DNA from: a virus
Length of the DNA: 38,754 nucleotides
Strand: one strand, 5' to 3'
Virus record (IMG/VR): IMGVR_UViG_3300031772_000109
Span: 1 to 38,754 of that record
This document shows positions 3,578 through 34,583 of this stretch, piece by piece (position 1 is the stretch's first letter; each line of letters opens with the position of its first letter). The translations under genes were made by a program, and so were the position numbers. The notes under the pieces were generated by a model. That model did not search any database and was not told where the DNA came from. It worked only from the letters and a program-made list of their open reading frames with translations.

Positions 3578-3638
3578 ATTATTAGGCCTAATAAATAATG
3601 ACTAATAAATTGTTATGCGTAATTTCATATTAAGAAAC

Positions 3639-3717
3639 GAGCAGAGGAATAAGCACGTCGCAAGGCAGTGCTTTTATTTTGGCAACAAGATAATAGTCGT
3701 TCCTCTGCTCATTTTTT
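3639..3717 (+). ncRNA. structured leader RNA, attenuator or small RNA ending in a T tract
   Basis: GAGCAGAGGAA (3639-3649) pairs perfectly with TTCCTCTGCTC (3700-3710), followed by ATTTTTT. Inside the 50-base loop AAGCAC (3651-3656) pairs with GTGCTT (3668-3673). The unit looks like a rho-independent terminator with an unusually large, structured apical part. With the promoter at 3549 it could yield a free RNA of about 135 nt, or act as an attenuator controlling the genes that start 5 bases later. Confidence 0.55.
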
Positions 3718-3722
3718 AATTT

Positions 3723-7122: not shown

Positions 7123-7226
7123 AGCAAGGATTAATTCCTTGCTCGGCGGAAGCGGTAAGCTGCGGCTTACTCCGAATGTTTACTTCATAGTTTTATTCGG
7201 CCGTCGATTAAGGAATTAATAATATG
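7123..7226 (+). promoter_or_regulatory. candidate RNA switch hiding the ribosome-binding site of the 7224 gene
   Basis: State A: ATTAATTCCTT (7130-7140) pairs with AAGGAATTAAT (7210-7220), and CGGCGG (7144-7149) with CCGTCG (7201-7206). This encloses two hairpins, GTAAGC-TGCG-GCTTAC (7155-7170) and CCGAAT/ATTCGG (7172-7200), in a three-way junction. The closing stem contains AAGGA (7210-7214), the Shine-Dalgarno sequence for ATG 7224. State B: AGCAAGGA (7123-7130) pairs with TCCTTGCT (7136-7143), using the same left strand and freeing the site. Mutually exclusive folds with the ribosome site in one of them are the hallmark of riboswitches and thermosensors. Confidence 0.55.
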
Positions 7227-7784: not shown

Positions 7785-8342
7785 ATGCCTAGTGGAGTTT
7801 ATATTTTAAAGAACAGAGGAAAATGGAACATAGGAAAGGTGCGGTCAAAAGAGTTCAGAAAAAATGTCGGTAATTTTTGGCGAGGCAAAAAAAAATCAGA
7901 AGACCTTAAAAGAAAGGACAGTGAGGCACACCGAGGGGCTAAACATTATAATTTTGGGAAAAAGCAATCTCCTGAATGGATAGCAATGATTAAAAGTGCA
8001 AATAGTGGCTCAAAAAGCCATCTTTGGAAGGGTGGGATTACACCGCTCTTCAGGAGCGTAAGAAAATGTTTCAAATACCGACAGTGGCGGTCAGACATTT
8101 TTACAAGAGATAACTGGACTTGCGTTGACTGTAACATCAGGGGAGGGGTACTGAAAGCGCATCACCTGAAGACGTTTGCCGCAATCCTCTGGGAATATAA
8201 AATAAAAACACTTGAAGAAGCTCTTCTTTGCGAAGAATTGTGGGATATAAATAATGGAGTCACCCTTTGTCACAAATGTCACTGGGATAGACATAGAAAA
8301 ATGAAATATGAACAAAAAAGACTACTTCTCTCTAAAGAATAA
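7785..8342 (+). CDS. HNH homing-type endonuclease with NUMOD-like N-terminus
   Basis: 185 residues. Residues 1-90 carry short basic segments typical of NUMOD-type DNA-contact repeats. The HNH domain spans about 100-175: CVDC (113-116), the catalytic-site pair HH at 126-127, an N-N pair before the last strand, and CHKC (162-165). It is expected to nick or cut DNA as a free-standing selfish endonuclease. It begins MPSGVY, exactly like the second HNH gene at 10641. It overlaps the exonuclease start by 35 bp and splits no recognisable gene. Confidence 0.85.
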   Translation: MPSGVYILKNRGKWNIGKVRSKEFRKNVGNFWRGKKKSEDLKRKDSEAHRGAKHYNFGKKQSPEWIAMIKSANSGSKSHLWKGGITPLFRSVRKCFKYRQWRSDIFTRDNWTCVDCNIRGGVLKAHHLKTFAAILWEYKIKTLEEALLCEELWDINNGVTLCHKCHWDRHRKMKYEQKRLLLSKE

Positions 8343-9736: not shown

Positions 9737-9978
9737 AAGTAAATTATTAACTAATAAAAATGTTTTATGAAACCAAACAAATATGGATGTAAGGTCTCAG
9801 ATGATGTATGCGTAATGCACGATGAACCATTGGTTTGCAAGCACGGATGCACTCACTCTAAATGCAACTGCAAGGAATATGTTGAAAATATGGTTAGCTT
9901 AAATAATGAAAAGGACAAATAGTTCCCAGCATCCTCAAGGTTTAAGTAAATTATTAACTAATAAAAATGTTTTATGAA
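9737..9978 (+). repeat. 35-bp direct repeat covering two gene starts
   Basis: The 35 bases at 9737-9771 are repeated exactly at 9944-9978 (AAGTAAATTATTAACTAATA... through the start codon to ATGAA). Each copy supplies the leader and ATG of a gene (9767 and 9974). The upstream edge TAGTTCCCAGCATCCT at 9920-9935 also recurs at 10309-10324, so a leader cassette has been copied. Confidence 0.8.
9767..9922 (+). CDS. small cysteine-rich protein (51 aa)
   Basis: Cysteines at 8, 14, 24, 28, 33 and 35, with histidines at 18, 26 and 30 (CKHGCTHSKCNCKEY), suggest a small zinc-binding fold. It uses the repeated leader and ends in a TAG that is part of the second repeat block. No family recognised. Confidence 0.55.
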   Translation: MKPNKYGCKVSDDVCVMHDEPLVCKHGCTHSKCNCKEYVENMVSLNNEKDK

Positions 9979-10297
9979 GAAAGTAGATGAAGTAGTGATT
10001 GATGGGGAAAACCTTTTGGTTATAAAGGCTTTAAAGAAAATGGGGTTTAAAACAACAAAGCCTCGGCATAAAAACGCTAATGGCTCTGACTTGTTCGCCA
10101 TTAAGGATAATTATGTGTTATCGGTGGAAGTTAAAAAGGCTACTAAAATAAAAAATGTTTTTAGAACACGAGGAGTGACGAGGACAAATGATGATTTAAT
10201 AGCGATAGTCTTCCCTTTTGATTATGTCTTAATAGAACCAATGCGAGACCATTTAAAATGCTGTAATAAAGGTGGAGATAGATTTTTAAATTATTAG
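9974..10297 (+). CDS. small PD-(D/E)XK-superfamily nuclease-like protein
   Basis: 107 residues. After a helix (ENLLVIKALKKMGF) comes GSD at 37-39 (D39), then VEVKKA with E52-x-K54, the spacing of a PD-(D/E)XK core such as Hjc, Mrr or DUF4365-like enzymes. The tail is short, so it may act as a dimer. It could be a resolvase or repair nuclease. The leader is the copied 35-bp repeat. Confidence 0.55.
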   Translation: MKKVDEVVIDGENLLVIKALKKMGFKTTKPRHKNANGSDLFAIKDNYVLSVEVKKATKIKNVFRTRGVTRTNDDLIAIVFPFDYVLIEPMRDHLKCCNKGGDRFLNY

Positions 10298-10319
10298 CTC
10301 CGGCTAATTAGTTCCCAGC

Positions 10320-10452
10320 ATCCTATCAGGATTGTGGCGGACAACCGCTTTACTATAAATATAGTTAGAAACATCATTGACCTTCTATGAGCTGAGAAGG
10401 TAAAAGGCTCACGGCTATAAGCTGGTGTAACCCCAGCCAATCCTGTTAGGAT
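10320..10452 (+). ncRNA. candidate structured RNA closed by a 14-bp stem
   Basis: ATCCTATCAGGATTG (10320-10334) pairs with CAATCCTGTTAGGAT (10438-10452) over 15 positions with a single T-T mismatch. Inside are GCGG-ACAA-CCGC (10337-10348), ACTAT/ATAGT (10352-10365), ACCTTCT/AGAAGGT (10380-10401) and GCTGG/CCAGC (10421-10437). The loop of the third hairpin contains TGAGC (10388-10392), complementary to GCTCA (10407-10411), allowing an H-type pseudoknot. Each closing strand is also a small palindrome (ATCCT-N3-AGGAT). The element fills the leader of the 53-residue gene at 10475. It matches no RNA class I know. Confidence 0.6.
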
Positions 10453-10474
10453 ATTGAGAATTAAAATATAAATT

Positions 10475-10636
10475 ATGAGAACTAAAAAGCAGATAGAGGA
10501 GTTTGATGGAATGCTGTTAGACCACGAATGGTTTGTCAGGTTTGTTGATGTGACTAAAGGTTTAGACAGAAAGACTAACAAAAGACTTCAAAAAAACCGT
10601 ATCGCTTTCTTAAAATGGTTTACTAAAATCAATTAA
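10475..10636 (+). CDS. small basic hypothetical protein (53 aa)
   Basis: MRTKKQIEEFDGMLLDHEWF... ending RIAFLKWFTKIN; it is helical and basic. It lies between the candidate structured RNA and the second HNH gene. Its 166-base leader is much longer than its neighbours', so the RNA probably acts on it or on the pair. Function unknown. Confidence 0.55.
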   Translation: MRTKKQIEEFDGMLLDHEWFVRFVDVTKGLDRKTNKRLQKNRIAFLKWFTKIN

Positions 10637-10640
10637 ATAT

Positions 10641-11003
10641 ATGCCTTCAGGTGTTTATAATCATAAAAAATCAAGACCTTATTTTAAACATTCCAAGAAG
10701 ACTAAAGAAAAAATAAAAAAATCTCTTTTAGGACATCCTGTTTCCGAGGAGACAATAGAAAAGATGAGCGGTAAAAATAGTCCAAGGTGGAAAGGCGGTG
10801 GCTATAATTATAAACATTATCGAATTATTAAAGAAAAAGGTAGGGCAACAAATTATATTTGTGAGATTTGTGAAAAAAAACAGGCAAAGCATTGGTCAAA
10901 TATTAACCATAAATATAAAAAAAACCCAAACGATTACAGGGCGTTATGTTGTAGTTGTCATAAAAATTGGGATAATAAACTAAGGAATGGTTTAAAAAAT
11001 TAA
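10641..11003 (+). CDS. small HNH endonuclease with NUMOD3-like motifs
   Basis: 120 residues. The N-terminal part has GHPVSEETIEKMSGKNSPRW (31-50), a NUMOD3-type DNA-binding repeat. The HNH part has CEIC (74-77), N-x-H (NINH, H90), and CCSCHKNWDN (103-112). It shares the N-terminus MPSGVY with the gene at 7785. It is probably a free-standing homing endonuclease. Its last bases begin a 36-bp repeat that recurs at 11605. Confidence 0.8.
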   Translation: MPSGVYNHKKSRPYFKHSKKTKEKIKKSLLGHPVSEETIEKMSGKNSPRWKGGGYNYKHYRIIKEKGRATNYICEICEKKQAKHWSNINHKYKKNPNDYRALCCSCHKNWDNKLRNGLKN

Positions 11004-11013
11004 AATAAACTCT

Positions 11014-11340
11014 ATGGACTGGAGAGAAAAACTAAAAAAAGAGCTTATCGGCATTAGAAACGGAGGCTTAATTACACCTGTTATCGCCTTTATCGAAGAA
11101 TTATTGGAAGAAAAAGACTTTATTATTTCAGCATTAGAAAGTTCTGAAGAAACACTGGAAGATGCCAATGAAAAACTTGCCAAAGAACTGAATGCAAAGA
11201 TAAAACTGCCAGAAGAAAGAAAATTATTTAATCAAACCAAACCTTCTGGCGGTTATTTTAAAGAATTAGAAGAATTACACTTTGCTCAAGGTTTCAATCA
11301 GGCGATAGATGAAGTCCGTAAGCTGAATAATATAAAGTAA
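11014..11340 (+). CDS. coiled-coil hypothetical protein (108 aa)
   Basis: MDWREKLKKELIGIRNGG..., then a long acidic helix (FIEELLEEKDFIISALESSEETLEDANEKLAKEL, about 29-62) with heptad-like leucines, then a second helical part. The first 10 bases of coding sequence and its leader are copied at 11605-11640. Function unknown. Confidence 0.65.
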   Translation: MDWREKLKKELIGIRNGGLITPVIAFIEELLEEKDFIISALESSEETLEDANEKLAKELNAKIKLPEERKLFNQTKPSGGYFKELEELHFAQGFNQAIDEVRKLNNIK

Positions 11341-11526: not shown

Positions 11527-11683
11527 TATAATATACATATCAGTCTTAATAAACTAAATAAAAAAAAGTATGGTGACGGTGATTATGATAAAAAGATTTA
11601 TAATTGGTTTAAAAAATTAAAATAAACTCTATGGACTGGAAAGAAAAGTTTAAAGGCGTTTAAATAATATAAAGGAGGGCTAA

Positions 11684-13066: not shown

Positions 13067-13411
13067 ATGAAAATCACTTGTAAAAATGGAACAGTTATTG
13101 AGGGTAACAGTTCCGAAATGAGAGGTCTTGCTCGTTTTTTCTCAACAGGAAAAATGAAAGAGACAGTCGCCTCAACCGAACTTCCACCGAGGAAGTACAA
13201 GAAGCATCAGACTTGGAGACCGTGGACAGGCGAAGAGCTGAACATTATCGCCAACAACCTGGCGCTGAAACAGCGCGAAGTCAGCTCCAAACTTCCGCTT
13301 CGCACCACTGGCGCAGTCGGAAACATTATGTGGGCGATGAAGAATGGTCGCTTGGACAAGGGAAAGCAAAGAACTCTCGACAACTATAAATTAACAGAGC
13401 CACAATTCTAA
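13067..13411 (+). CDS. Myb/SANT-like DNA-binding protein
   Basis: 114 residues. The C-terminal two thirds contains WRPWTGEELNIIANNLALKQ, then SSKLPLRTTGAVGNIMW, the W-x2-WT-x-EE...LP.RT..AV pattern of a Myb/SANT or GcrA-like helix-turn-helix. The N-terminus (MKITCKNGTVIEG) is a short beta segment. Its stop overlaps the next start (TAATG), so it is coupled to the SF2 helicase and may guide it. The pairing suggests a partnership but does not prove one. Confidence 0.6.
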   Translation: MKITCKNGTVIEGNSSEMRGLARFFSTGKMKETVASTELPPRKYKKHQTWRPWTGEELNIIANNLALKQREVSSKLPLRTTGAVGNIMWAMKNGRLDKGKQRTLDNYKLTEPQF

Positions 13412-33751: not shown

Positions 33752-34147
33752 TTAAGCGTTATCAACGGCTGTAATTGTTATTGTCACTTTACCAGCAGAG
33801 TATGCCGTAATATTAAAAGTCAACCAGTCAATACCATTGATGTTCGCCTCATACAGCCTGCAAACATCCGTTCCAGTCGTGACGACTCCAGTCGCTCCAC
33901 GCACGGGAGCGGAGCTATCAGCAAGATTCGCTAATTCTATGTAATCCCAGGCGTTAGTCGGCGATTGAGCCGATGCAAATGCCGCCGCATCGTCACCGAT
34001 TGAGCCGACGCATTTTACGGTAGAATTAGAACTATCGCTTGTGGCGATACAGATAACACAATTTCTAAAATCCTTAACGTCAATAAAGTTGCCTATACCA
34101 GTCGCCGCTTTTGCACTCATTATTGTATAAATTTTTCGATTACGCAT
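33752..34147 (-). CDS. small beta-rich virion protein, paralogue of the 34191 gene
   Basis: 131 residues. MRNRKIYTIMSAKAATGIGN, then VKDFRNCVICI, SPTNAWDYIELANL, APVRGATGV, NGIDWLTFNI and a VDNA end. These blocks match the next gene upstream almost one for one. A single beta-sandwich-like domain, possibly a decoration, connector or fibre-base protein. Confidence 0.65.
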   Translation of the reverse strand: MRNRKIYTIMSAKAATGIGNFIDVKDFRNCVICIATSDSSNSTVKCVGSIGDDAAAFASAQSPTNAWDYIELANLADSSAPVRGATGVVTTGTDVCRLYEANINGIDWLTFNITAYSAGKVTITITAVDNA

Positions 34148-34190: not shown

Positions 34191-34583
34191 TTAAGCATTA
34201 TCGACTAAGGTTGCCGTGATAGTCACCGCACCCGCAGTCCAGTCTAAATTAAACGTTAACCAATCAACGCCATTGACGTTGACTTCATAAGAGTTACAAA
34301 CATCCGCTCCGGTTGAAGAAACGCCAGTCACTCCGCGCACGGGAGACGAACTATTTGATAAATCTGCCAGCTCTAAATAGTCCCAAGCATTAGTTGGTGA
34401 TTGAGTCGCCGCAAAATCTGGGGCGGTGTCGCCGATTGCTCCGACACAATAAGCAGTAAATGTTGATGTGCCGCTGCTAGAGATGGTAACAACGCAATTT
34501 CTGAAATCCCTGACGTCAAGAATATTGCCGATTCCATCCGCTACCGCTGCACTGAAGATTGTATAAATTTTTCGATTACGCAT
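34191..34583 (-). CDS. small beta-rich virion protein, tandem paralogue
   Basis: 130 residues. MRNRKIYTIFSAAVADGIGN and later blocks (VRDFRNCVV, SPTNAWDYLELADL, SPVRGVTGV, NGVDWLTFNL, LVDNA) match the 33752 product along its whole length, so the pair arose by tandem duplication. Differences are spread throughout, so the duplication is old. It follows a strong hairpin (34613-34637). Confidence 0.65.
   Translation of the reverse strand: MRNRKIYTIFSAAVADGIGNILDVRDFRNCVVTISSSGTSTFTAYCVGAIGDTAPDFAATQSPTNAWDYLELADLSNSSSPVRGVTGVSSTGADVCNSYEVNVNGVDWLTFNLDWTAGAVTITATLVDNA

Follow-up and report, generated by a model that had tools for sequence, protein, structure and literature searches.

The window analysed here, a stretch of 38,754 nt, is the record of an unclassified virus. 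Within it, the gap between two co-directional genes on the + strand (9974-10297 and 10475-10636) is filled by an element of about 157 nt (10308-10464), which an initial annotation had described as a compact multi-helix RNA that might be an inserted or evolved module. We wanted to know whether this element is a genuine structured RNA, whether it has relatives, and what it might do.

The element lies in an accessory region that runs from a nuclease-like gene at 8308 to a helicase gene at 13411, and its core is followed, 190 nt downstream, by the start of an HNH/NUMOD3-like gene. The closest syntenic relative covering the element region is IMGVR_UViG_3300005672_000006 (45.7 kb; G001), whose capsid-like protein is 77% identical to that of the window, two other structural proteins 68-69% and the helicase 62%; none of the accessory-region genes finds a match there. 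A second record of 26 kb is in part 99% identical, but its alignment covers the structural genes only and stops short of the element. Searches with the upstream protein or the HNH protein gave no useful relatives, nor did a capsid search of genome contigs yield any. The features of the locus, with helices as predicted, are the following.

9917..9935, + strand: segment of a sibling leader, identical at 18 of 19 positions to element positions 10306-10324
9974..10297, + strand: upstream gene, 107 aa, weak similarity (below the cut-off) to Hjc/Mrr-type nucleases
10308..10319, + strand: P1 outer 5' strand, pairs with 10453-10464
10320..10334, + strand: P1 inner 5' strand
10336..10349, + strand: hairpin P2, 5 bp with a 4-nt loop, 1 nt past P1
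10352..10365, + strand: hairpin P3, 5 bp, A-U-rich
10380..10401, + strand: hairpin P4, 7 bp, loop holding the pseudoknot 5' half
10388..10393, + strand: pseudoknot 5' half, UGAGCU
10406..10411, + strand: pseudoknot 3' half, GGCUCA, competing with a weak local hairpin (10406-10416)
10421..10437, + strand: hairpin P5, 5 bp, loop UGUAACC (T-loop-like), adjoining P1 without spacer
10438..10452, + strand: P1 inner 3' strand
10453..10464, + strand: P1 outer 3' strand, its end 10 nt short of the next start codon
10475..10636, + strand: downstream gene, 53 aa, without a confident family or any relative found

As the initial annotation had it, the 15-position inner arms (10320-10334 with 10438-10452) pair with a single mismatch, which lies at U10326/U10446; 103 nt lie between them. 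The closing stem turned out to be longer than originally described: it continues outward to 10308/10464 with G-U pairs (at 10311 and 10318) and two further mismatches (at 10315 and 10319), giving a wobble-containing helix of 22-27 positions that carries a multi-branched head. Each arm is also a perfect 13-nt palindrome, and the element contains two copies of ATCCTnnnAGGAT. All four hairpins noted previously are present in the head, and so is the pseudoknot option, in which the UGAGC(U) loop and the downstream (G)GCUCA can form 6 bp; when only unpaired letters were shuffled, a comparable crossing helix arose in 0.7-1.3% of 2000 trials. The minimum free energy of the core is -45.8 kcal/mol, as against -29.3 ± 3.6 kcal/mol for shuffled sequences (z -4.61), and none of 200 shuffles was as good. 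According to these predictions, the element is a genuine, strongly folded and unclassified structured phage RNA.

The window contains five inverted repeats of like quality (15 bp, at most one mismatch, spacing of at most 200), whereas about 0.6 are expected, and its other intergenic regions include some that fold equally well or better; the arms are thus beyond chance, yet not unique in the window. The grid of our window-wide z scan does not contain the whole element, and that scan therefore ranks its surroundings rather than the element itself. A very stable branched hairpin (3629-3720, z -9.3) ends only a few bases short of the 3723 start, and in G001 a hairpin of unrelated sequence (L029, 16010-16076) precedes the gene homologous to 3723. 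A 12-bp closing stem at 7130-7219, ending some 4 nt ahead of the 7224 start, encloses two inner hairpins (z -6.2). In another relative, IMGVR_UViG_3300008450_008428, five consecutive noncoding long-stem modules lie between a helicase gene and a RecU-like gene (L004, 11191-11792; z -5.8, -4.8, -1.7, -6.0 and -8.2), two of which hold T-arm-like hairpins (GCAGTTCGATTCTGC and CTACTTTGAATGTAG); none of the modules has a match in Rfam or by phage BLAST. As long-stem structures of this kind turn up repeatedly between genes in this phage group, the element is less singular than first thought.

Further structures were noted in passing. The 3629-3720 hairpin has a T run in its 3' arm. In another relative, arms that pair perfectly over 15 bp lie upstream of a primase gene (L031, 783-911), separated by about 100 nt; they share no sequence similarity with the element. 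Some other relatives contain long, near-perfect palindromes centred on (AT)n, in DNA that is mostly noncoding (L049 10822-11077, L014 5750-5979 and L018 6119-6334); these are possibly origins or cruciforms rather than members of the element's class.

The statement that no known class fits was borne out at Rfam 15: over the window there was no match at the gathering score, a permissive search gave only matches of E 4.4-6.8, which is chance level, and the element had no match in the phage database. Several candidate classes were nevertheless compared individually. The closing helix is stacked without spacer on a hairpin of 5 bp with a 7-nt loop, which recalls the acceptor and T arms of tRNA and tmRNA, but the element has no CCA end and its stem is far longer than 7 bp; ARAGORN finds no tRNA or tmRNA in the window or G001, and neither does Rfam. 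An intrinsic terminator was also rejected, since the arms are followed by ATTGAGAATTAAAA and GCTGGGAACTAA, neither strand having a T run on inspection. HEARO, ROOL, GOLLD and group I introns share the phage context, and the HNH/NUMOD3-like gene is nearby, but the element is far smaller than these RNAs and matches none of them in Rfam.

For the twister-sister ribozyme (RF02681), the best local match covers 17 positions and reaches 8.8 bits (E 2.95), where the threshold is 34 bits. The likeness resides in P5 (GCUGGUGUAACCCCAGC), which resembles SL4, including the U and A of a T-loop-type contact. The core nucleotides of the ribozyme are G5, C6, A8, G35, U36 and C62-A63 (numbering of PMC5660989); by inspection, G5/C6 are replaced by A/A and G35/U36 by C/C in the element, whose P5 and P1 are not separated by a 3' cleavage strand. 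Twister-sister was rejected on the score and on these nucleotides.

A single-sequence covariance model, R1, matched the window alone when run against 23 phage records and, unfiltered, against two relatives, its best weak match sharing the closing stem only. A search for long stems, rather than for sequence, yielded a probable homologue. In G001, a multi-branched RNA on a 22-bp stem (L028, 404-598; -71.8 kcal/mol, z -6.74) lies in the same accessory region between co-directional genes, ending 16 nt before the ATG of an 82-aa gene. As R1 missed this element too, its negative results mean little.

A structure-blind sequence alignment sets the stems of the window and L028 elements in one register, including window positions 10313-10319; 93% of the aligned cells are paired, compared with 18-48% when the stems are slid. 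The 3' arms are identical at 14 of 22 positions at zero shift (16 of 22 if the comparison begins at GCCAA), a level that random segments reach in about 0.1% of cases even with shifts of ±6 allowed, and the maximum among 20 other long-stem modules was 11. In both elements a 5-bp hairpin adjoins the 3' strand of the stem without spacer (GCUGG/CCAGC in the window, GCGAG/CUCGC in L028), and a small hairpin stands closely 3' of the 5' strand. A loose descriptor of this arrangement returned about 35 rows over 496 kb, of which only these two elements, with a strong stem in noncoding sequence, convinced us; this is our judgement and not a statistic. The two elements also differ: their unconstrained match has a BLAST E of 0.21, the heads (103 and 151 nt) are unlike in length and in internal hairpins, the L028 arms are not self-complementary, so the palindrome of the window is not kept there, and the flanking genes are unrelated.

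Of the 22 aligned stem pairs, 8 are changed on both sides and 10 are unchanged. Two-sided changes had been named as support for the stem, and they are present, but they come from two members only and are partly circular: two unrelated stems laid in register also show such changes, and the covariation counts only if homology is accepted. We therefore place the weight on the 3'-arm identity, the shared junction and the shared location. On this basis L028 404-598 is, in our own estimate, quite likely, though not proven, to be a diverged homologue of the window element. Both stems contain G-U pairs, which speaks for an RNA and against a DNA element. Together with the fold statistics, these features support the part of the initial annotation that spoke of an evolved RNA module.

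Searches of viral and genome collections with 3'-arm DNA patterns gave no third member. Pattern matches other than that of G001 all failed the complementary-arm test (maximum 30, versus 34 and 45) and serve as a negative control; the one scoring 30 has a z of -1.8 and was taken as chance. Local BLAST matches of the L028 element in three other records (G004, G013 and G017) were likewise judged chance, BLAST of either element against phages gave short chance matches only, and no second full copy of the window element was found.

What, then, might the element do? Our leading explanation, a tentative one, is that it is a structured RNA module transcribed inside the phage accessory operon, its double-stranded stem acting as a processing signal. 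The long helix would be recognised by a double-strand-specific, RNase III-type activity that cuts the polycistronic transcript; the cut would set free or protect a stable RNA, about 100-190 nt long, from the intergenic region and create a 5' end immediately ahead of the following start codon. A dsRNA stem of about two helical turns bracketing an RNA, as expected for RNase III-type processing, is found in both phages, and the combination of a two-turn stem, a compact head and an operon without a terminator after it fits a processing signal. In the early region of phage T7, RNase III processing hairpins are long irregular stems between co-directional genes, before the next start codon. The element has this arrangement in common with them, just ahead of its own next start codon; it differs in that its stem encloses a multi-branched head of 103-151 nt with a pseudoknot option. 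DicF is a short RNA, of about 53 nt. Together with the T7 hairpins, the DicF-type sRNA of the prophage dicB operon (PMC12197685) is the nearest precedent for the mechanism: it is a phage-derived RNA within a polycistronic operon whose ends arise by processing, as we propose for the element.

If the L028 element is a true homologue, the RNA outlives the exchange of the surrounding genes, which would mark it as a functional unit; that a probable diverged copy adjoins different genes suggests that the element matters in its own right. The recurrence of long-stem intergenic RNAs in this poorly known phage group raises the question whether phages routinely bracket small RNAs with processing stems.

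The initial annotation had listed, among other possible roles, riboswitch-like control of the 10475 gene. Here, the element would be a cis-acting leader, riboswitch-like or thermometer-like, that governs how the next gene is translated. The foot of the stem could mask the A/U-rich initiation region until a signal opened it, and in an alternative state the self-complementary arms (ATCCTatcAGGAT and ATCCTgttAGGAT), both perfect palindromes, could fold into two local hairpins. The element does stand directly before a start codon in both phages, and in the predicted fold part of the leader is taken up by the outer stem, 10458-10463 being only about 5-12% unpaired. However, the fold is predicted to leave the start codon and the 10 nt ahead of it mostly open, the downstream genes in the window and G001 are unrelated, the G001 arms are not self-complementary, and there is no Rfam aptamer. 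With unrelated flanking genes and an open start codon, a dedicated switch for the 10475 gene is not our first choice, and we regard a leader of this kind as unlikely.

It is also doubtful that the element is a plain structure for mRNA processing or stability, comparable to a T7 RNase III site, with a functionless released piece and a head that is filler. Several unrelated long-stem intergenic structures without common sequence occur in the window and its relatives, and in G001 the hairpin that precedes the homologue of the 3723 gene differs in sequence; the elaborate head, with a pseudoknot option unlikely by chance, and the like hairpin adjoining the stem in the probable homologue speak against it.

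Some room is also left, though the case is quite improbable, for an undescribed class of accessory phage RNA acting in trans on the host or its defences. The defining feature of such a class would be a short hairpin stacked immediately on a long closing helix; it would be carried in the variable gene island of this phage group, and it is perhaps related in principle to the tandem modules of L004 11191-11792.

A DNA-level element, that is, paired operators, a cruciform or the small mobile element with inverted ends suggested originally, is very unlikely. It would account for the two copies of ATCCTnnnAGGAT and for the sibling leader that carries part of the left end, but the G-U pairs of the stem count at the RNA level only, the palindrome is not kept in G001, no target duplication was seen, the complementarity runs past the proposed ends and there is no other full copy. 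That the element is a chance inverted repeat in an A+T-rich intergenic region is most improbable of all, for although other regions of the window match its folding energy alone, its z of -4.6, the expectation of about 0.6 such repeats per window and a probable homologue in register all oppose it.

The initial annotation had held that the element is absent from two sibling leaders, which needs correction: the segment at 9917-9935 corresponds to the outer part of the 5' arm, and may be either a truncated copy or an ancestral leader. Other leader segments are repeated before different genes (9737-9771 and 9944-9978, 35 nt identical; 10988-11037 and 11605-11654, 50 nt, 92%), as if recombination between leaders had shuffled gene cassettes. 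Elsewhere in the window, the adjacent genes 33752-34147 and 34191-34583 both match the same relative gene (71% and 61%) and are probably a tandem duplication. Among the relatives, a DNA methyltransferase ORF at L028 1280-3334 is interrupted by an intein-like insert (LSEDTEILTEKGF ... VFITGN), a different frame there holding an HNH-like ORF, and a predicted tmRNA and tRNA-Lys are present in a phage record at L008 15112-15410 and 7492-7586, respectively.
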